Shown here piece after piece: positions 3,983-22,685 of a stretch of DNA of 22,859 bases; position 1 is the stretch's first letter; each line of letters starts with the position of its first letter. The position numbers were made by a program, and so were the translations under genes. The stretch is from a virus. The DNA lies in IMG/VR virus record IMGVR_UViG_3300029448_000472, positions 1 through 22,859 of that record; one strand, written 5' to 3'. The notes beneath the pieces are model-generated. The model was not told the DNA's origin, ran no database searches, and worked only from the letters and a program-made list of their open reading frames with translations.

Positions 3983-4411
3983 TTAAGTAATCAAATCAAG
4001 TATAGTTTGTAGTTTGCCTTTTATGGCTTTGTTATTCAATGTGTTTTTGAGACCCATGTGTAGATTTTTTGGCCAACATTCAAATGCAGTCCAGCAATAT
4101 CCCGAATGTTCTTTGTTTAACTTTGGCAAAAATTCATTTTCGATTGCAATTAAGTAAGTGTGAAAGAAAAATTTTTCATCATTTGATGTAAACATTTCTA
4201 ACGGAATAATTTTTTTAAATTTAGGCATGTCCCCAACTTCTTCCTTGACTTCTCGTTTTAAGCCTTCAAATGCGGACTCGGTATACTTTGTCCTTCCGCC
4301 TACCAATCCCCACATGCCTTTGGTTTTATCCGAGGTTCTCTGTAAAAATAGGAATCTTTTTGTTGATGTGCTATAGAACAACGCACCAGAACATATTATA
4401 TTATTTTCCAT
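3983..4411 (-). CDS. Nudix hydrolase
   Basis: 142 residues, usual length for a single-domain Nudix enzyme. The Nudix box is complete: G-x5-E-x7-REV-x-EE-x-G, starting at the second G of VGGRTKYTE and ending in EEVGD. The Glu residues that bind the catalytic metal are all present. Upstream are strands FLFLQRTSDKTKGMWGLVGG, typical of the fold (W-G-L/F-P/V-G-G). Such enzymes cleave nucleoside diphosphates linked to another group; T4 itself encodes one (NudE). The substrate here cannot be told from sequence; sanitising nucleotides, dinucleoside polyphosphates or RNA caps are all possible. It is transcribed leftward, downstream of gp15 but with its own sigma70-like promoter, and no Shine-Dalgarno sequence precedes ATG. 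That suggests early expression, unlike its late-gene neighbours. Confidence 0.93.
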   Translation of the reverse strand: MENNIICSGALFYSTSTKRFLFLQRTSDKTKGMWGLVGGRTKYTESAFEGLKREVKEEVGDMPKFKKIIPLEMFTSNDEKFFFHTYLIAIENEFLPKLNKEHSGYCWTAFECWPKNLHMGLKNTLNNKAIKGKLQTILDLIT

Positions 4412-8092: not shown

Positions 8093-8746
8093 ATGCTTAT
8101 AGGTGTAGTAGGATTAATAGGTTCTGGTAAAGATACAGTCTCGGAGAGATTGGCGACAAAACATAATTTTAAAAAAGATTCATTTGCTAAAAGTTTAAAA
8201 GATGCCGTTAGTGCCATGTTTAATTGGGACAGGGAAATGCTTGAAGGACGTGGCGAGTCAAGCAGGCATTGGCGAGAACAGCCGGACAAATTCTGGAGCG
8301 AAAAGTTTGGAAAACCAATAACACCAAGATGGGTACTACAACATTTTGGCACAGAAGTTATGCGTGGACAAATGCTGGATACAATCTGGGTTGACAGTTG
8401 TCTTGCACGTTACAAAGGCGAGCCTACAGTAATATCAGATACCCGTTTTGAGAATGAAATTAAAACTATAAGACAAGCAGGTGGCAAAATAATACTTGTA
8501 AAAAGAGGACAAGATCCAGACTGGTTTACAAGTTATGTTGAAGGCAATATCGTTCCCACCGGTATACATAGTTCTGAATATGCATGGGCAAAATCAGAGT
8601 TTGATCACGTGATACAGAACGATGGCACAAAGGATGAGCTATACGAAAAAGTTGATGATCTAATCATCAGCGACAAGATCTCCAATACGCCAACCGAGAC
8701 GTCTGACCCCTTGAAGCCGTTGGCAATTGGCGCAAACAGTTTTTAA
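8093..8746 (+). CDS. gp1: Deoxynucleoside monophosphate kinase (T4 gp1-like)
   Basis: 217 residues; T4 gp1 has 241. The P-loop is at residues 7-15 (GLIGSGKDT), and the Lys and Thr/Asp positions are intact. DSFAKSLKDAVSAMF, WVLQHFGTEVMR, VISDTRFENEIKTI and GKIILVKRG match the dNMP kinase pattern known from T4-type phages. The enzyme phosphorylates dNMPs (in T4 dTMP, dGMP and hydroxymethyl-dCMP) to dNDPs in the cytoplasm, feeding phage DNA synthesis with nucleotides recovered from host DNA. It has its own sigma70-like promoter and no Shine-Dalgarno sequence. In T4 gene 1 is not a neck gene, so its place among virion genes is a rearrangement. Its last 29 codons overlap, tail to tail, the leftward HNH-like gene. 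Confidence 0.9.
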   Translation: MLIGVVGLIGSGKDTVSERLATKHNFKKDSFAKSLKDAVSAMFNWDREMLEGRGESSRHWREQPDKFWSEKFGKPITPRWVLQHFGTEVMRGQMLDTIWVDSCLARYKGEPTVISDTRFENEIKTIRQAGGKIILVKRGQDPDWFTSYVEGNIVPTGIHSSEYAWAKSEFDHVIQNDGTKDELYEKVDDLIISDKISNTPTETSDPLKPLAIGANSF

Positions 8747-9019
8747 ATTAGTAGCCGCAGTATTTCTCATATTTCCGTCAACAAAAAATACATCAAGTTG
8801 TGACTGCTGTTGTGCTCTAAAGCCACACAACTCGCATTTTGTACGTTTCTTGTACCCAGATCTTTGCAGTGGAGTAATGCCACCAATTTTCTTTCCGGCT
8901 TTCTTACGATTACAGGTATCACACAGGCTCCGCCAATATATTTTAGTGCCCCGCCTATATGCATAGGCCCGTGGCTTGGCTTTGCACTTCTTACACAATG
9001 GCCTGTCCTTGTACTGCAT
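8660..9019 (-). CDS. HNH-like zinc protein with replaced catalytic residues
   Basis: 119 residues from ATG 9019. Four CxxC pairs are present at residues 9/12, 33/36, 62/65 and 96/99, enough for two zinc sites. The second half follows the HNH pattern (CELCGF, LDVxxVDGN, NLKTVCANC). However, the family's DHIDGN His is Phe (VFFVDGN) and the closing CxxCH is CANCQ. Loss of both His residues argues against nuclease activity, leaving a basic zinc-binding DNA- or RNA-binding protein. The frame is open upstream to 9061, but ATG 9019 sits exactly 5 bases after TAAATA on the minus strand and directly before the conserved C-x-x-C, so it is preferred. The 3' end overlaps the dNMP kinase by 87 bases. Alternative view: a still-active divergent nuclease using other residues. 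Confidence 0.78.
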   Translation of the reverse strand: MQYKDRPLCKKCKAKPRAYAYRRGTKIYWRSLCDTCNRKKAGKKIGGITPLQRSGYKKRTKCELCGFRAQQQSQLDVFFVDGNMRNTAATNLKTVCANCQRLQGVRRLGWRIGDLVADD

Positions 9020-9024
9020 ATCGT

Positions 9025-9032
9025 TATTTACG
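9025..9032 (-). promoter_or_regulatory. Late promoter CGTAAATA for the HNH-like gene
   Basis: On the minus strand TAAATA (9030-9025) is followed by 5 bases and ATG at 9019. No Shine-Dalgarno sequence is present in the gap. Confidence 0.6.
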
Positions 9033-9033
9033 T

Positions 9034-9047
9034 TGCCTATATAGGCA
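9034..9047. promoter_or_regulatory. Perfect 14-base palindrome, operator candidate
   Basis: TGCCTATATAGGCA is a perfect inverted repeat in the 115-base divergent gap between the HNH-like gene and gp18. It lies 3 bases upstream of the HNH promoter motif. The same arms recur inside the HNH-like gene as GCCTAT-4-ATAGGC (8953-8968). It could be an operator or just a hairpin. Confidence 0.4.
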
Positions 9048-9087
9048 CCTAAAAATAGCAAGTTATATCGTAAAAACCATATGATCT

Positions 9088-9134: not shown

Positions 9135-12100
9135 ATGGCAACATTGACATCACCAGGAGTAGAGGTTTCAGTAATAAACGAAAGTTTTTACGTACCATCA
9201 GATGCGGGTACAACACCTCTTTTTATAGTAGCATCAGCACAGGATAAAACAAACGGAGCAGGCGACGGAACAGCGTCAGGAACAACAACTGCAAACGCAA
9301 ATACTGCCTTTTTGATTTCATCTCAAAGAGAATTAACAGAGACTTTCGGAGATCCGAAATTCTACACAGACGCTTCAGGCAATTCATTAAACGGTTATGA
9401 ATTGAACGAATATGGTTTACAAGCGGCATACTCATTTTTGGGTGTAGCCAACAGAGCTTTTGTATTAAGAGCAAATGTTAACACGTCTGAATTAGTTGGA
9501 AGTGCAAATCCTCCAACAGCTCGTCCAACAGATGGCACATACTGGTTTGACCTTGCATCAAGCGTGTATGGATTATTTGAGTGGTCAAAAACAAACCAAA
9601 AATTCACAGCAATCACTCCAACGTTGATCACTTCAGTTTCTGACCTGGTAGGAAACAGTTCAACAGGTGCTCCAAAACAAAACATTGGATCAATCGGAGA
9701 CTACGCAATTAACACAACACACGTTACTAACAAGATCTACAAGAAAAATGCAAGTAACGAATGGAACCATGTTGGATCAAGTGCATGGCATGCCGCTTTA
9801 CCAATCATCACAGTTGCTAGTGGCACAACAGTCACAAACAGTGCAACTATGCAGATGAACGGCGTACAGATACAAACTGGCGGTACTGCATTATCAAATG
9901 TTGCAACAGCAATTGGTTCTAATGTTACTAACGTAACAGCAAGTGTAAACAGCACAACAGGAAATCTAGAAATATTCCATAACGGTCAAGCAATAGGTGA
10001 CTCAACTGCAGGAACTAACACAATTAGATTTGAAGAAGGATCTGGATTGATGGGAGAATTAGGAATCACAGCAGGTACTTTCAAAGGTCCTAAATTCCTA
10101 CAAGCGGCACACACTTCAAGACCAACTTGGAAAACAGCAGACGAAGACAGACCTAACGGATCAGTTTGGTTCAAAACAACTTCTGCTAATTCAGGTGCAA
10201 ACATTATATCAAAACTATACAATGCATCAAGTGGTGCATTCGCAACTGTAAGTTCACCATTACATGCAAACAACCATACAGCGATTTTCAAACTTGATGC
10301 CGCGGGTGGTGGAGCAAATTTATCAGTAGGTGACTTATACGTGCAGTTCAACACAACTGAAGAGTTCATGACATCAGCAAGTACTACTGACACAACTAAC
10401 AATGTTGGTGACTTCCAGATATTCAGATACGAAGGTGGCACAACTGTAATTGAATCAAATACTACTTTCCCGAGCTTCACAGCAGGTGAGACATTCTCAG
10501 TACAAGAGTCAATCAAAAACCAAGAGGCATTAAACGCGGCTAAGACTGTGACAATGATCTCAGGTGATGGAAGTACACTGGGTGATGCAGAAGACTTTGT
10601 TACTGCATTCTCAACAGCAGGATTTACAAACCTGGAAGCAGAAGTAATCGGTTCAGGTACTAAAAAAGGTGCAATCAGAATCACACACAAACTTGGTGGT
10701 GAGTTCAGAATGTTTGACACTTTAGGTACACCATTAGCAGATGCAGGATTTAGTGCAACAACGGCACACAGTTATGGCACATACACGGCAAACAGTGCAA
10801 CGTTGATTGACAACTTGTATGACCTACCAACTGGTGAATCACTTGACTCAACAGCAAACACAGGTATATTAGCAAGTAACTTCAAAAGATTAAGTTACAC
10901 AGCAAGTACAAGTGAACCAACTAACGAACCAGCAGATGGCACGTTATGGTACAGCACAACATTAGATGCTGACATCATGGCGCACAATGGTACAACTTTT
11001 GTTGGATATGTAACAGCATACTCAAGCACAGATCCAAATGGTCCACAGTTTAGTGCAACAGCACCAACTTCACAATCAGATGGCACTGTACTTGTAAACA
11101 ACGACTTATGGATTGACACAAGTGATCTTGAAAACTATCCAAAACTTTACAGATATAACACAGCGGCGACTTTAAGTTCAACTAACACAGCGAACCAAGT
11201 TGCAGTAACTACGTCTGGTGCGGCTTGGGAACTAGTTGACAAAACTGACCAAACAACAGAAGACGGTGTTCTTTTTGCAGATGCAAGATGGCAAACGACA
11301 GCAGAGAAGAACGCAAACGACAGCACACAGGCTGGAAGCCCAAGTTCAATTAAAGACTTGTTGAGCGATGGATTCTTAGATCCAGATGCTCCAGATCCGG
11401 CTTTATTCCCACAAGGTATATTGTTGTACAACACAAGACGTTCTGGTTACAATGTTAAAGAATACAAAAACAGTTACATTACAACTACGAAATATCCAGG
11501 ATCTGGTTCAACTGGCCTAGGTAACATTAGAGCAAGTAACGAATCAGTTGCAGGATACTTCCCAGACAGATGGGTAACAAAATCAAGCAACAATGCTGAC
11601 GGTTCTGGTACATTCGGAAGAAAATCACAGAGAAAAGTAGTTGTTGAGCAACTAAAATCAGAGATCGACACTAACCAAGCGATAAGAGAAGACCAAAGAG
11701 GCTTCAACGTAATCGCAACGCCTGGTTATCCGGAACTGATTGCAAACATGATTAACCTAAACACAGACAGAAACAACACTGCCTTTATAGTTGGTGACAC
11801 TCCATTAAGATTAGAGGGAACATCAACAAACCTACAAAACTGGGCAAACAACACTGCAGGTGCATCGGACAACGGAGAAGATGGATTAGTAAGTGCAAGT
11901 GACCACTTGGGAGTGTTTTATCCTTCTGGACAGACGACAGACAACGCAGGAAAAAGTATTGTAGTTCCACCATCACACATGATGATCAGAGTGTTGGCAA
12001 ACAACGATAGTATTGCTTTCCCATGGTTTGCACCGGCTGGTACAAGAAGAGGTGTAGTTGACAATGCAACAGCAGTTGGTTACATAGATTCAGAAGGTGA

Positions 12101-12565: not shown

Positions 12566-12573
12566 AATAAATA
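12566..12573 (+). promoter_or_regulatory. Late promoter AATAAATA for gp19
   Basis: AATAAATA, 10 bases before the ATG at 12584. GGAG (12574-12577) directly follows the motif and would lie before the predicted +1, so it can act as a ribosome binding site only on read-through mRNA from gp18. Confidence 0.55.
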
Positions 12574-17549: not shown

Positions 17550-17557
17550 GTTAAATA
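17550..17557 (+). promoter_or_regulatory. Late promoter GTTAAATA for gp17
   Basis: TTAAATA ends 7 bases (CTACACT) before ATG at 17565. No Shine-Dalgarno sequence in the gap. Confidence 0.55.
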
Positions 17558-17564
17558 CTACACT

Positions 17565-19157
17565 ATGGCGTATGTATCATTAGATAGCGACCAAATTAAA
17601 AAGGCGCACAAGAAACACAAATACACCAAAGAGCAAGTCGAAAAACTTGAGAAGTGTATGCATCCTAAATCTGGACCATTGTTCTTTATGAAAGAATTCA
17701 TGAAGATACAACATCCTGTAAAAGGTTCGATCCCTTTTGTACCTTATCCATATCAAGAAAGATTAATTGAAAGTTACAACGATCATAGATTTTCTATTGC
17801 TATGCTACCCAGACAAACAGGAAAAACAACATGTGCATCTGGATTCCTTATTTGGTATGCCATGTTTAGACCAGATTCACAAATACTAATTGCGGCACAC
17901 AAATACGCAGGTGCATCAGACATTATGTCAAGGGTGCGTTATGCTTACGAGATGTTGCCCAGTTGGATCAAAGCAGGTGTAACACAGTATAATAGAAATA
18001 GTATAGAATTCGACAACGGTTCAAAAATTATGGCAACCACAACAACTGAAAACACAGGACGGGGTATGTCACTTACTTTAATATATTGTGATGAGTTTGC
18101 GTTCGTGCAACCACCAGAAAAAGCCAAAGAGTTTTGGACTTCACTATCTCCAACATTGAGTACAGGTGGAAAGTGTATGATCACAAGCACACCTAACTCT
18201 GATGAAGATCAATTTGCATTGATATGGAAAGAAGCAAACAAAAGATTTGATGAATATGGCAACGATAAAGTGATTGGCACCAATGGTTTCTATGCAATGA
18301 AGGCCCATTGGTCAGAACATCCAGAAAGAGACGAATCATGGGCAGAACAAGAACGTTCAAGAATAGGTGAAGAAAGATTTAGAAGGGAACACGAATGCGA
18401 ATTCTTGATCTATGACGAGACCTTAATAAGCAGTATTCATCTTGCTGACATGGAAGGCACGGCACCTGTTGAAACAACCGGACAAGTACGTTGGTATAAA
18501 CGTCCAACTCCTGGTCATACTTACATGGTATCGCTCGATCCTGCTATGGGTACAGGTGGCGACTATGCGGCAATACAGGTTTTTGAACTACCAACGTTTG
18601 AGCAAGTGGCAGAGTGGCAACATAACACCACACCAATGAATCACCAAATAAGAATTTTACAACAGATCAATAAGCACATTAATGATGCTATCATGGAAAA
18701 AGACTCAAGTGCATCGCCTCAAATATTTTACAGTATGGAAAATAATACAATAGGTGAAGCCGCACTTATGAGAGTAATGGATATTGGTGAAGAAAACATT
18801 CCTGGAATGTTTTTGTCAGAACCAATAAGGAAAGGACACAGAAGGAAATTTAGAAGAGGATTTAATACAACTGCAAAATTCAAAATTGATGCTTGTACAA
18901 AATTTAAAGAACTTATTGAAAGTGGAAAAATGAAACTTAATTCACAGTTATTAATATCGGAACTTAAAGACTTTGTAGCAAGTGGCATGAGCTACAAGGC
19001 CAAAGCAGGACAACACGACGACCTAGTAAGTGCTTGTTTGTTAATGACACGTATGATGAAAGTGTTGGCGGATTTTGATCCAAAAATATTTGAAAAATGG
19101 ACAGACAGGACATCGGAAATCAAACCAATGCCTGTGTTTGGATCATTTTACGGATAA
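17565..19157 (+). CDS. gp17: Large terminase subunit gp17 (packaging ATPase and nuclease)
   Basis: 530 residues; T4 gp17 has 610. ATPase domain: Walker A PRQTGKTT (82-89), Walker B LIYCDEF (172-178), coupling motif ITSTPN (206-211). Nuclease domain of the RNase H type: VSLDPAMGTGGDYAAI (322-337, Asp325 and Asp333), FYSMENN (Glu392) and QHDDLVSA (Asp485/486). All catalytic acids are therefore present. The motor docks on the portal, pumps DNA into the prohead with ATP and cuts the concatemer. The start is close to a late promoter and lacks a Shine-Dalgarno sequence. The stop overlaps the radical SAM start (TAATG), which links their translation. Confidence 0.97.
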   Translation: MAYVSLDSDQIKKAHKKHKYTKEQVEKLEKCMHPKSGPLFFMKEFMKIQHPVKGSIPFVPYPYQERLIESYNDHRFSIAMLPRQTGKTTCASGFLIWYAMFRPDSQILIAAHKYAGASDIMSRVRYAYEMLPSWIKAGVTQYNRNSIEFDNGSKIMATTTTENTGRGMSLTLIYCDEFAFVQPPEKAKEFWTSLSPTLSTGGKCMITSTPNSDEDQFALIWKEANKRFDEYGNDKVIGTNGFYAMKAHWSEHPERDESWAEQERSRIGEERFRREHECEFLIYDETLISSIHLADMEGTAPVETTGQVRWYKRPTPGHTYMVSLDPAMGTGGDYAAIQVFELPTFEQVAEWQHNTTPMNHQIRILQQINKHINDAIMEKDSSASPQIFYSMENNTIGEAALMRVMDIGEENIPGMFLSEPIRKGHRRKFRRGFNTTAKFKIDACTKFKELIESGKMKLNSQLLISELKDFVASGMSYKAKAGQHDDLVSACLLMTRMMKVLADFDPKIFEKWTDRTSEIKPMPVFGSFYG

Positions 19158-20710
19158 TGCAAAATAAAATTACTTTATGCCTTGGCGACAACTCTTCGGC
19201 AGATGCATGGGCACATAAACTTACACAAAAATATTCTGTAGAACAACAAATTGTGTTCCGTGGTGCAGTAACCAATGTTGATCAAAATTTGCAACACGGA
19301 TGCTACTATACCGGTCCTGTAAATCTACAGACAGCAGATATACTTGAAGTAAGCAAAAGATTCGACAAGATTGTTGTTTTAGATCAAAGTCAAGAGCAAT
19401 ACTCTCATTCGGATATTTTTGTTTCAATGTTTAGATTAGTGGAATTCCTAGAAGAGAAAGGTACAAAAGTAAAAATACTTAATGAAAAAATATTTTCAAA
19501 CATAAAATATTGGCAAAATTTAATTAAAAAAAATAAAAGTTTTTGTATAATGCCGTGGATTTATCATGGTGGATTAGGTGGCAATCACACCACTTGTAAC
19601 AACGCCGGCTTTGGCCATACACCATTAACAAAAATGAATGAAATTACTGATTGGCAGAAAGATAAAAATTTTACTGAGGTAAGACAAAAAATGCTAGCCG
19701 GAGTAAAGATAGACAGAAACTGTAATGCATGTTACAAAAACGAATTTATTAATGAACTCAGTATGCGACAGAATGATACCATAAAATGGGTAACCGAACT
19801 TGGATTGAAATCCACAAAAGATCTAGAAAATATTAAACAACCTTTGTATTATGAAATAAGGCCAAGCAATAAATGTAATATAATGTGCAGAACATGTGAA
19901 CCAAATTACAGCCACCTTATCGAGAAAGAAGCGGAAAAAATTACAGACAACTATCTAAAAACAATTTATCCTACAAAAACATGGGACGAAATGACAAACT
20001 TTCCTAGTGACATAGATCACATACATAGACTCTATGTTGCTGGAGGAGAACCAACAGTGTCTCCAGAACTTTATAATTTTTTACGGAAATGTATTGCAGA
20101 AAACAAAACAAATTTTAATTTTAGAATAAACACCAATGCAGTTAAAATTAACGATACACTCATAAAACTTTTCAAACCTTTTAGAAATCTAGGATTTAGT
20201 TGTAGTATAGATGGCATTCCAAGAATTAATGATTATATACGTTGGGGAACTGACACAAATACAGCGATAAAAAACATACACAAATTAAATGAAAATCACC
20301 AAATTGCATTCATATCTGTGGTAAGCATATACAATATTGCCAGCATAGGAGAACTGTTAAACTTTTTTGACCTGGAATTTCCTAATGCTGTTTTGCAACT
20401 ACAGAAAGCCGGACATCCACAAGATATACTGAGCCCATTCAATCATGTGGACACCGATAAAGTTTTACGATCGTTAGAACTTGCAAAAACTACAAAATGT
20501 TACTGGCATAGTGAAAGAGGCACAAAATCTATGATAGATGCACTGTATCAGCATTATGCAAGTTCACACAAGATAGATAATGATAAGTTAACCAAATTTT
20601 TCTATTATAATGATGCTTTAGACAGGTTTAGAAAGTCAAAATTAAGTGATTATATACCAGATCTTGAGGCCTGTAGGAGTTACACTCTGCAAGAACTAAA
20701 CAATAAATAA
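19157..20710 (+). CDS. Radical SAM protein with extra cysteine domain
   Basis: 517 residues from the ATG that overlaps gp17's TAA stop. The reading frame is open upstream into gp17, but this start gives coupling and a sensible N-terminus. Residues 1-115 form an unrecognised alpha/beta domain (ITLCLGDNSS, KIVVLDQS). Residues 128-195 carry FCIMPW, a Cys at 147, and CNACYKNE (189/192), the pattern of 'twitch'-type radical SAM proteins with an auxiliary iron-sulfur site. The core has CNIMCRTC (240/244/247, the Cx3Cx2C site for the 4Fe-4S cluster), VAGGEPT (295-300, SAM binding), and FRINTNAV and FSCSIDG strands. Such enzymes start radical chemistry on peptides, proteins, nucleic acids or sugars; the substrate here is unknown. 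Co-translation with gp17 suggests late action, perhaps on a virion or host component. Confidence 0.9.
   Translation: MQNKITLCLGDNSSADAWAHKLTQKYSVEQQIVFRGAVTNVDQNLQHGCYYTGPVNLQTADILEVSKRFDKIVVLDQSQEQYSHSDIFVSMFRLVEFLEEKGTKVKILNEKIFSNIKYWQNLIKKNKSFCIMPWIYHGGLGGNHTTCNNAGFGHTPLTKMNEITDWQKDKNFTEVRQKMLAGVKIDRNCNACYKNEFINELSMRQNDTIKWVTELGLKSTKDLENIKQPLYYEIRPSNKCNIMCRTCEPNYSHLIEKEAEKITDNYLKTIYPTKTWDEMTNFPSDIDHIHRLYVAGGEPTVSPELYNFLRKCIAENKTNFNFRINTNAVKINDTLIKLFKPFRNLGFSCSIDGIPRINDYIRWGTDTNTAIKNIHKLNENHQIAFISVVSIYNIASIGELLNFFDLEFPNAVLQLQKAGHPQDILSPFNHVDTDKVLRSLELAKTTKCYWHSERGTKSMIDALYQHYASSHKIDNDKLTKFFYYNDALDRFRKSKLSDYIPDLEACRSYTLQELNNK
20702..20709 (+). promoter_or_regulatory. Late promoter AATAAATA
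   Basis: Overlaps the radical SAM stop codon (20708-20710) and ends 5 bases (ACACT) before ATG at 20715, the same ending as at 13287. Confidence 0.65.
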
Positions 20711-20714
20711 CACT

Positions 20715-22685
20715 ATGAATCCAAAAAACTCGCTAGATCTATTCAATAAAATCAGGTCACAGTTCACTAACATAAGACTTGGTGATGAGAACGGCGCCGC
20801 AACTGCAAGTCCGCAGGATGCTGTATTTTTTGAGTTTGAATTCCAAGAAGATGCAGACACATTTGGGTCAGTAAGCATAAGCCTGGCAGACGGTGAGAAC
20901 ATGAAAGTTTACTACAACAGAGATCTTGTCAACAAAATCGATGAAGACAGCAAGGACGAATGGTACGCTTTCTTGAAAGAACTGAAAGACTTTGCTGTAG
21001 AACATCAATTAAGGTTTGATGTACGAGATATCACAAAAAACAACCTCACAAAGCAGGATTATGAAAATCTTGCAGATACGAACAAAACGGTAAATACTGA
21101 TGAAATGTCAGAAGAACTAACAAGAATCACTAAATTAGCGGGTGTTGAAAAGGCACCAGTTGCAGAAGGACTTACGGGTACTTCTAAAAGTTCATTTGAG
21201 AACTTAGACAAAACAAAATTAATAATCAGACACAAAGGCAAAGTTGACGAAACTGTGCCAGGTGCAAGATCAAGACAGATACAGTCACTATACATCGAGA
21301 ACGAAGATGGTGAAAGATTCAAATATCCACTTACACACCTAGCAGGTGCAAGAGCGATGCAGAGGCACGTTGCAAATGGTGGAAGACCACATGATGAATT
21401 TGGCGAACACATTGTAGCAACTTCAGAAGACATAGCAAAACTAAATTCTTTTTCGAGATATGTTACTAACAAAGATCAATTAAATGATAACGCAGGTGAC
21501 ATCATTGAACAAACAAAATTAAAATTAGAAAATTTAAGAGGCTACATGAAAAATCTTTCTAAACAGTCTCACTATGAAAATGCAAGTAAAGATTTCAAAA
21601 CATCAGAGGAACAAATACTAGATGACGAAACAGTAAACAAATTGAGAGAAAAGTTTACTATGACAAATTTAGACAAGAGGGTAGAAGATGCTTTCCCGTT
21701 AATAAACAGAATAATGAGTGAGATCGAAGTTAATGAATTAGATGACACAGAAGGACCAAAAATTAAAGACACACAACCAACTGTGTTAGGTAAAGATGTT
21801 GAACCAATTGATGCTGATCCAGAACCACAAGTTGATCATGGTGCAGTTGTACAAAGTTTCCTAACAGATCCTGAAAGAAAACTTATATTAAGAAAAGATG
21901 CATCAGCAGACAAGATGTTGTCAGCAACAAAATTTAAAGACAAAAGCACAATGCTTGGTTCGATATTATCAGACATAGCATCAAGAATGTTATCTAAAAC
22001 CCCCGAAGAAGACAGAGTGGCAAACTTTGCTTCTAGAGTAGCAGATGGCATCGACCAAGAAGGTTCTGCTTCATTCAAGCCTGGACCTGATTACAATAAA
22101 AATAAAAAAATAGCAGTGCAACTTGCTAAAAGATATATTGACGATTACAAAAAAATGAAATCTGATCCAGAATATGCTGACCAAGTAAGAATGGATCCTG
22201 AAGACTTTAATCCAAAAAAACACCCTAAACTTGATAAAAGAGCAAGAGGTGAAGCACAGGCATTTGAGGACTGGGCAGAGAATACAGCAAACGAATACGC
22301 ACAACCACAGCATCAGGATAAAGAATTAGAAAAAAAAGATAAAGAAGACGCAATGAAACTTGACGTTACTAAAGCAGACAAAATGATGAATACAACTGCG
22401 TACAAAAGAATGCAGGCAGGAGATCCAAAGTATGCTGACAAAACTGAAGGCAATGAATTTGCAAACGCAGTTAGGAAAGCAAAAGCGGCAGGCATGAAAG
22501 CAGGCGATAAATTCAAAGTTGGTGATCAGGAATACACGTTGAAAGACGCTATCGAAATGGCAGGATTACAACTTGAAGAATTCTTTTCAGAAGAAGACCT
22601 AGCACCAATAGAAGACGCACAACAAGAAGCAGAAGCGATCAACACAGAATTAGACAGAATCAAAACACTGGCTAACTTATCTTAA
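20715..22685 (+). CDS. Large conserved marine T4-type phage protein, unknown function
   Basis: 656 residues. The N-terminal domain (1-~120) has WYAFLKELKDFAVEHQLRFD and VRDITKNNL. A linker with RITKLAGV (137-144) follows. Then comes a conserved-looking domain (~165-250) with KLIIRHKGKVDE, PGARSRQIQSLYIENEDGER, FKYPLTHLAGARAMQRHVA and GGRPHDEFGEHI. The rest is charged and helical (repeated Lys/Asp/Glu), ending in GDKFKVGDQEYTLKDAIEMA and a short acidic tail. The PGARSR..RFKYP..HLAGARAM pattern is familiar from uncharacterised proteins of cyanophages and pelagiphages. Basic residues in that domain could bind nucleic acid or phosphate, but this is a guess. Predicted mRNA is leaderless. Confidence 0.75.
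   Translation: MNPKNSLDLFNKIRSQFTNIRLGDENGAATASPQDAVFFEFEFQEDADTFGSVSISLADGENMKVYYNRDLVNKIDEDSKDEWYAFLKELKDFAVEHQLRFDVRDITKNNLTKQDYENLADTNKTVNTDEMSEELTRITKLAGVEKAPVAEGLTGTSKSSFENLDKTKLIIRHKGKVDETVPGARSRQIQSLYIENEDGERFKYPLTHLAGARAMQRHVANGGRPHDEFGEHIVATSEDIAKLNSFSRYVTNKDQLNDNAGDIIEQTKLKLENLRGYMKNLSKQSHYENASKDFKTSEEQILDDETVNKLREKFTMTNLDKRVEDAFPLINRIMSEIEVNELDDTEGPKIKDTQPTVLGKDVEPIDADPEPQVDHGAVVQSFLTDPERKLILRKDASADKMLSATKFKDKSTMLGSILSDIASRMLSKTPEEDRVANFASRVADGIDQEGSASFKPGPDYNKNKKIAVQLAKRYIDDYKKMKSDPEYADQVRMDPEDFNPKKHPKLDKRARGEAQAFEDWAENTANEYAQPQHQDKELEKKDKEDAMKLDVTKADKMMNTTAYKRMQAGDPKYADKTEGNEFANAVRKAKAAGMKAGDKFKVGDQEYTLKDAIEMAGLQLEEFFSEEDLAPIEDAQQEAEAINTELDRIKTLANLS
21089..21096 (+). promoter_or_regulatory. 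Possible internal late promoter inside the 20715 gene
   Basis: GGTAAATA ends 8 bases before an in-frame ATG at 21105 (Met131), which lies at the boundary between the N-terminal and conserved domains. It fits the spacing used by real genes in this window but may be a chance match. Confidence 0.25.

Follow-up and report, generated by a model that had tools for sequence, protein, structure and literature searches.

In the stretch of viral DNA analyzed here (22,859 nucleotides, hereafter the window), a gene for a radical SAM enzyme, designated rSAM, begins inside the stop codon of terL, the gene for the large terminase. This arrangement raises the question of whether translation together with the packaging motor means that the enzyme also acts on packaging and, more generally, of what such a gene contributes at this position.

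A radical SAM enzyme with an additional N-terminal domain

The gp17-like terL gene occupies positions 17565 to 19157 of the plus strand (PHROG terminase large subunit, E 7.4e-111). Its TAA stop codon (19155 to 19157) overlaps the ATG codon of rSAM (19157 to 19159) in the sequence TAATG (19155 to 19159), exactly as described in the initial annotation. The rSAM gene (19157 to 20710, plus strand) encodes 517 residues and is followed by vsp (20715 to 22685, plus strand), which encodes a virion structural protein (PHROG_13484, E 3.8e-18). An upstream ATG at 19097, present in the list of open reading frames, was ruled out as the start codon of rSAM because the homologues begin near the MQN position. 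The overlap is not kept in relatives. The rSAM gene of locus L001 starts with TTG or ATG a few bases past the terL stop codon, and those of other carriers start 15 to 18 nt downstream of terL. In carriers with rSAM in the terL slot, neither of the flanking gaps exceeds 43 nt. Locus L095, an eleventh carrier, has rSAM before terL rather than behind it.

The protein belongs to the radical SAM superfamily, as initially annotated. Residues 126 to 504 matched the NF033640 family (N_Twi_rSAM) with a score of 228.2 bits (E 1.7e-67), above the curated cut-off of 170 bits, and a match to the Pfam Radical_SAM family was also obtained (PF04055, E 6e-10). An alignment of homologues was built from 37 non-redundant rows, all from viral contigs, two of which are truncated by contig ends. 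Seven cysteines are invariant in the 37 rows, down to about 33% identity. Three of these (C240, C244, and C247) form the CxxxCxxC cluster motif (19874 to 19897, plus strand). The four others (C130, C147, C189, and C192), already proposed as additional ligands in the initial annotation, lie in a twitch-like region (residues about 126 to 196; 19532 to 19744, plus strand) and constitute a conserved twitch-type set for a putative auxiliary cluster. The GGEP SAM-binding motif (residues 296 to 299; 20042 to 20053, plus strand) was also recognized, G296 and G297 being invariant and P299 nearly so. The AlphaFold2 model of the whole protein, based on the alignment of homologues, had a pLDDT of 92.9 and a pTM of 0.91. 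Its Foldseek matches in the PDB were radical SAM enzymes; SkfB, BlsE, and SuiB ranked first, with low TMq values (0.27 to 0.31). Our searches did not retrieve a biochemical function for the NF033640 family or a paper assigning a function to the subfamily described here. Scanning of GTDB genome contigs with degenerate patterns, a procedure of limited sensitivity, did not lead to any confirmed homologue. As a member of its family, rSAM is ordinary; its interest lies in the variable late slot that it occupies and in its recurrent N-terminal domain.

This domain (residues 1 to 126; 19157 to 19534, plus strand) had been left without an assigned family in the initial annotation, which called for a structure prediction. 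Modeled alone with AlphaFold2, it adopted a Rossmann-like α/β fold (pLDDT 92.9) with the order strand-helix-strand-strand-helix-strand-helix-strand-helix. Sequence searches against Pfam, PHROG, and the PDB returned nothing credible, and Foldseek returned no significant match (best E values of 0.02 in the PDB and 0.004 in BFVD); deoxyribosyltransferase/SLOG-like folds recurred among the weak BFVD matches, and no winged helix was present among the top fold matches. Comparison with 50,697 phage records gave no match at E ≤ 1. A profile made from a subset of the domains identified 34 loci, and the open reading frame was read at 16 of these. Fifteen encode a fusion of the N-terminal domain with a radical SAM enzyme; at the remaining locus, L168, the frame taken contained an upstream methyltransferase. 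These results define a subfamily of radical SAM proteins that is recurrent, has a length of about 510 residues, and has an N-terminal fold named in none of the libraries searched.

Three other assignments of the domain were considered. Binding of vitamin B12 was considered unlikely since residues 1 to 126 contain no DxHxxG sequence and no B12-binding domain was present among the top 50 Foldseek matches. Some class B (cobalamin-dependent) radical SAM enzymes lack the DxHxxG motif. Two resemblances suggested by eye, to the glycosyltransferase-like protein of the radical SAM arrays of large phages and to the N-terminal extension of the radical SAM proteins of these arrays, were rejected based on hhalign probabilities of 0.2% and 0.5%, respectively.

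Occupancy of the slot between terL and vsp

The late block was tabulated as ten genes in 88 loci, comprising the 80 nearest TerL relatives and eight rSAM carriers. The terL-vsp junction was readable in 86 loci: 72 harbored no inserted gene, ten harbored rSAM, and four harbored a methyltransferase unrelated to rSAM. Most of the ten rSAM-filled slots originated from rSAM-seeded searches, and 10 of 86 is therefore an inflated value rather than an unbiased frequency; among the loci obtained with TerL as the seed, rSAM was present in the slot in 3 of 80. Empty junctions were 12 to 22 bp long in most loci and 97 bp long in L071.

Sequence identity between carriers also separates rSAM from its neighbors. 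The identity of rSAM was uncorrelated with that of terL (Spearman rho of −0.08), whereas vsp and terL varied together (0.70), both coefficients being descriptive since the pairs are not independent. Loci L001 and L089 have terL genes with 94% identity and rSAM genes with 45% identity; the corresponding values are 83% and 63% for L088 and L089. The G+C content of rSAM was lower than that of terL in the six carriers compared, for example 32.6 versus 38% in the window and 35 versus 49% in L089. For two carrier pairs with unsaturated dS, dN/dS ratios of 0.08 and 0.13 were obtained, indicating that rSAM is under purifying selection in the carriers; the pair formed by the window and L001 was saturated. 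The rSAM gene is exchanged between phages independently of the adjacent genes. All rSAM genes of the terL slot form one clade (support of 100/99), indicating that their association with late genes is both old and stable within that lineage. From this tree, rSAM was probably acquired by a single lineage, within which exchange, loss, or renewed gain followed.

Homologues with the same N-terminal domain were found after a gene for a DnaB-type helicase, before a gene for an ATP-dependent DNA ligase, after the gene for IF-1, with a gene for an Fe-S biogenesis protein nearby, or in other, mixed contexts. Comparison of four or more contexts revealed no constant partner gene, and association with terL was not a conserved feature of the homologues. 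The initial annotation had tied rSAM to packaging and held that scattered homologues without a link to late genes would speak against this. Scattering was indeed largely observed, the exception being the single clade of the terL slot; together with the empty or methyltransferase-filled slots and the discordant identities, it leaves the link to packaging weak.

The same data bear on the proposal that rSAM modifies packaged DNA or nucleotide precursors. A precedent for DNA modification is known in the QueE-type radical SAM enzymes of phages, some homologues adjoin helicase or ligase genes, and the N-terminal domain displays the weak likeness to nucleoside deoxyribosyltransferase/SLOG folds mentioned above (E 0.04 to 0.3). 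However, this likeness is not significant, the match to a QueE-like PHROG is weak (E 1.8e-4 only), the contexts share no constant partner gene, and rSAM is swapped or absent among phages with about 90% identical terminases. The initial suggestion that packaged DNA is the substrate is thus not supported, and we consider it highly improbable.

Probable late timing and candidate substrates

TAAATA is the core of T4-type late promoters. In the window, this element is present 13 nt before the ATG codon of terL (17552 to 17557, plus strand) and again at 20704 to 20709 (plus strand), where it overlaps the 3' end of rSAM and precedes vsp. Among the relatives, TAAATA was found within 20 nt upstream of the start codon of terL in 84 of 86 loci and of vsp in all 86, whether or not cargo was present, as well as upstream of the tube gene (54/57) and g174 (69/72), for a background of 1.2%. 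It was found upstream of none of the g125 (0/65), gp4 (0/65), and g289 (0/71) genes. The rSAM gene of the window lacks a TAAATA element and is flanked by those of terL and vsp, making late co-expression with terL the likeliest timing. Directly before rSAM, a TTAAATA-type element is present in L085, L087, L088, and L095. Late expression of rSAM is therefore plausible in the lineage of the window, and this part of the initial proposal stands; the comparisons made here do not support the further step from operon position to a role in packaging, or to packaged DNA or one particular virion protein as the target. In the window, TAAATA elements were noted at 12568, 15496, 16029, 3532, 7883, and 13276, in addition to 17552 and 20704, at distances of 11 to 16 nt before the start codons of selected genes.

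Other genes are inserted in the late block. Thirty-three genes found at five junctions fell into ten sequence groups that were derived from these same inserts. Radical SAM genes accounted for 19 (four kinds) and methyltransferase genes for six (two kinds); the other eight belonged to four further groups. One of these eight encodes an Asp/Asn-hydroxylase according to Pfam, and two, forming one group, weakly matched cupin/hydroxylase proteins. Three others, also forming one group, had no Pfam match and matched a PHROG named DNA endonuclease V, their likeness to oxygenases being limited to an HxD...H motif read by eye. The remaining group of two genes was not identified. Accessory genes located elsewhere in the same loci appeared similar in kind by eye, and the pattern is therefore not specific to the late block. 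Apparent insertions of 400 to 800 bp at the g205-g289 junction, and several at the g289-terL junction, were set aside; the two that were read, in L009 and L087, consisted of g289-like sequence.

Additional genes were observed during this survey. Radical SAM genes of the three other kinds are located at other late-block junctions in L007 (922 to 1890), L039 (5013 to 5987), L047 (2994 to 4025), L054 (2991 to 4019), and L022 (3296 to 4429). In L042, an open reading frame for 499 residues with a CxxxCxxC motif (9377 to 10876) has, by eye, the look of a cobalamin-type radical SAM enzyme. The minus strand of the window contains a NUDIX hydrolase gene (3983 to 4411; PF00293, E 2.8e-12) and an open reading frame for 133 residues with a weak HNH-like match (8660 to 9061), which overlaps the end of a kinase-like gene (8093 to 8746).

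The late site and its promoter-like elements, the company of radical SAM enzymes, methyltransferases, and hydroxylase-like proteins at neighboring junctions, and the fold likeness to the peptide-modifying enzymes SkfB and SuiB would all suit an enzyme that cross-links, epimerizes, or oxidizes a virion protein during late assembly, the other junction enzymes of the relatives serving the same purpose. Against this explanation, most near-identical phages lack rSAM, the family occurs in non-late contexts in other phages, similar accessory genes are present outside of the late block, and no RRE-like peptide-binding domain was detected in the protein. We regard modification of a virion protein as unlikely. 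A broader version, rated slightly lower still, is that slots of the head-tail operon house interchangeable late tailoring enzymes that decorate the virion or its glycans, so that phages would exchange virion chemistry as cassettes, with rSAM as one module. If this were the case, several unrelated types of radical SAM enzymes would be modules of this kind, along with hydroxylase-like proteins and methyltransferases.

Maturation of a small ribosomal peptide, in the manner of RiPP enzymes, is suggested by the twitch architecture and by SkfB and SuiB being among the top fold matches. The intergenic gaps of at most 43 nt in the terL slot leave no room for a gene encoding a precursor peptide, no RRE was detected, and no small gene is a constant partner across contexts. 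RiPP maturation was rejected on the first two grounds, modification of a co-transcribed peptide is without support, and we place the overall probability of a RiPP-like role very low.

A different type of chemistry is hinted at by distant relatives. In a search of 12 carrier records, five records of 197 to 340 kb each contained 10 to 13 NF033640 matches, not all above the cut-off. In L191 to L195 (records of 92 to 340 kb), radical SAM genes of the NF033640 family form tandem arrays. The arrays from four of the five large records and from one 92-kb record lie near structural-looking genes. A carbamoyltransferase gene, confirmed with Pfam, is adjacent to one array, look-alikes beside others being judged by eye only, and genes for nucleotide-sugar enzymes are present in other array loci. 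These neighbors point weakly to carbohydrate chemistry; the substrate class considered below rests on the context of these relatives, which lack the N-terminal domain of rSAM.

Taken together, we favor, as somewhat more probable than the contrary, a reading that combines an optional and laterally exchanged gene, late expression, and surface-tailoring chemistry. In this model, rSAM is optional cargo of a slot that separates terL from the following virion gene and is swapped between environmental T4-like phages independently of its neighbors. In the lineage of the window, read-through from the terL element would place it on the terL transcript late in infection, and its translation would be coupled to the terL stop codon. 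The enzyme family, the two cysteine sets, the behavior of the slot, the discordant exchange, and purifying selection in carriers are directly documented, whereas late timing, the function of the clusters, the role of the N-terminal domain, and the class of substrate are inferences. The product would probably be a self-contained enzyme. The CxxxCxxC cluster would cleave SAM to generate a 5'-deoxyadenosyl radical, the twitch region would contain an auxiliary [4Fe-4S] cluster, fully ligated by cysteines, that accepts or passes an electron, and the Rossmann-like domain would bind or present the substrate. Most likely, the enzyme would carry out C-H chemistry, either oxidative or rearranging, and its substrate would be a small molecule, nucleotide-sugar, or glycan that serves in tailoring of the host or virion surface, rather than packaged DNA or the packaging motor. 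The fold matches argue in part against this substrate class since they include the RiPP maturases SkfB and SuiB besides the blasticidin enzyme BlsE (TM-scores of 0.27 to 0.31). Translation with the packaging motor is an appealing but weak argument for action on packaging. The picture that replaces it is one of variable insertion sites in the late operons of environmental T4-like phages, filled mainly with genes for radical SAM enzymes, methyltransferases, and hydroxylase-like proteins.

Comparison with known radical SAM systems

The match to NF033640 spans nearly all of the 398 positions of the model, and twitch cysteines precede the CxxxCxxC motif in both; rSAM differs by its 126 additional N-terminal residues, a domain described in none of the libraries searched. 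The radical SAM protein of the Vibrio phage KVP40 type (PHROG_14086, E 4.8e-17) shares the phage twitch/radical SAM core, but at about 23% identity and over residues 127 to 429 only, and the N-terminal domain of rSAM has no match in the collection of phage records. SkfB, SuiB, and BlsE, SPASM/twitch and related enzymes of known structure, have the same radical SAM core, and SkfB and SuiB also have auxiliary clusters. The low TMq values, the location of the cysteine-bearing region ahead of the core, and the lack of a detected RRE distinguish rSAM from these enzymes. Finally, pelagimyophages have already been reported to vary in their cassettes of radical SAM genes (PMC7029224). Both cases involve variable radical SAM cassettes in marine T4-like phages; those of the pelagimyophages are described in the host-recognition cluster, whereas rSAM occupies the slot adjacent to terL.
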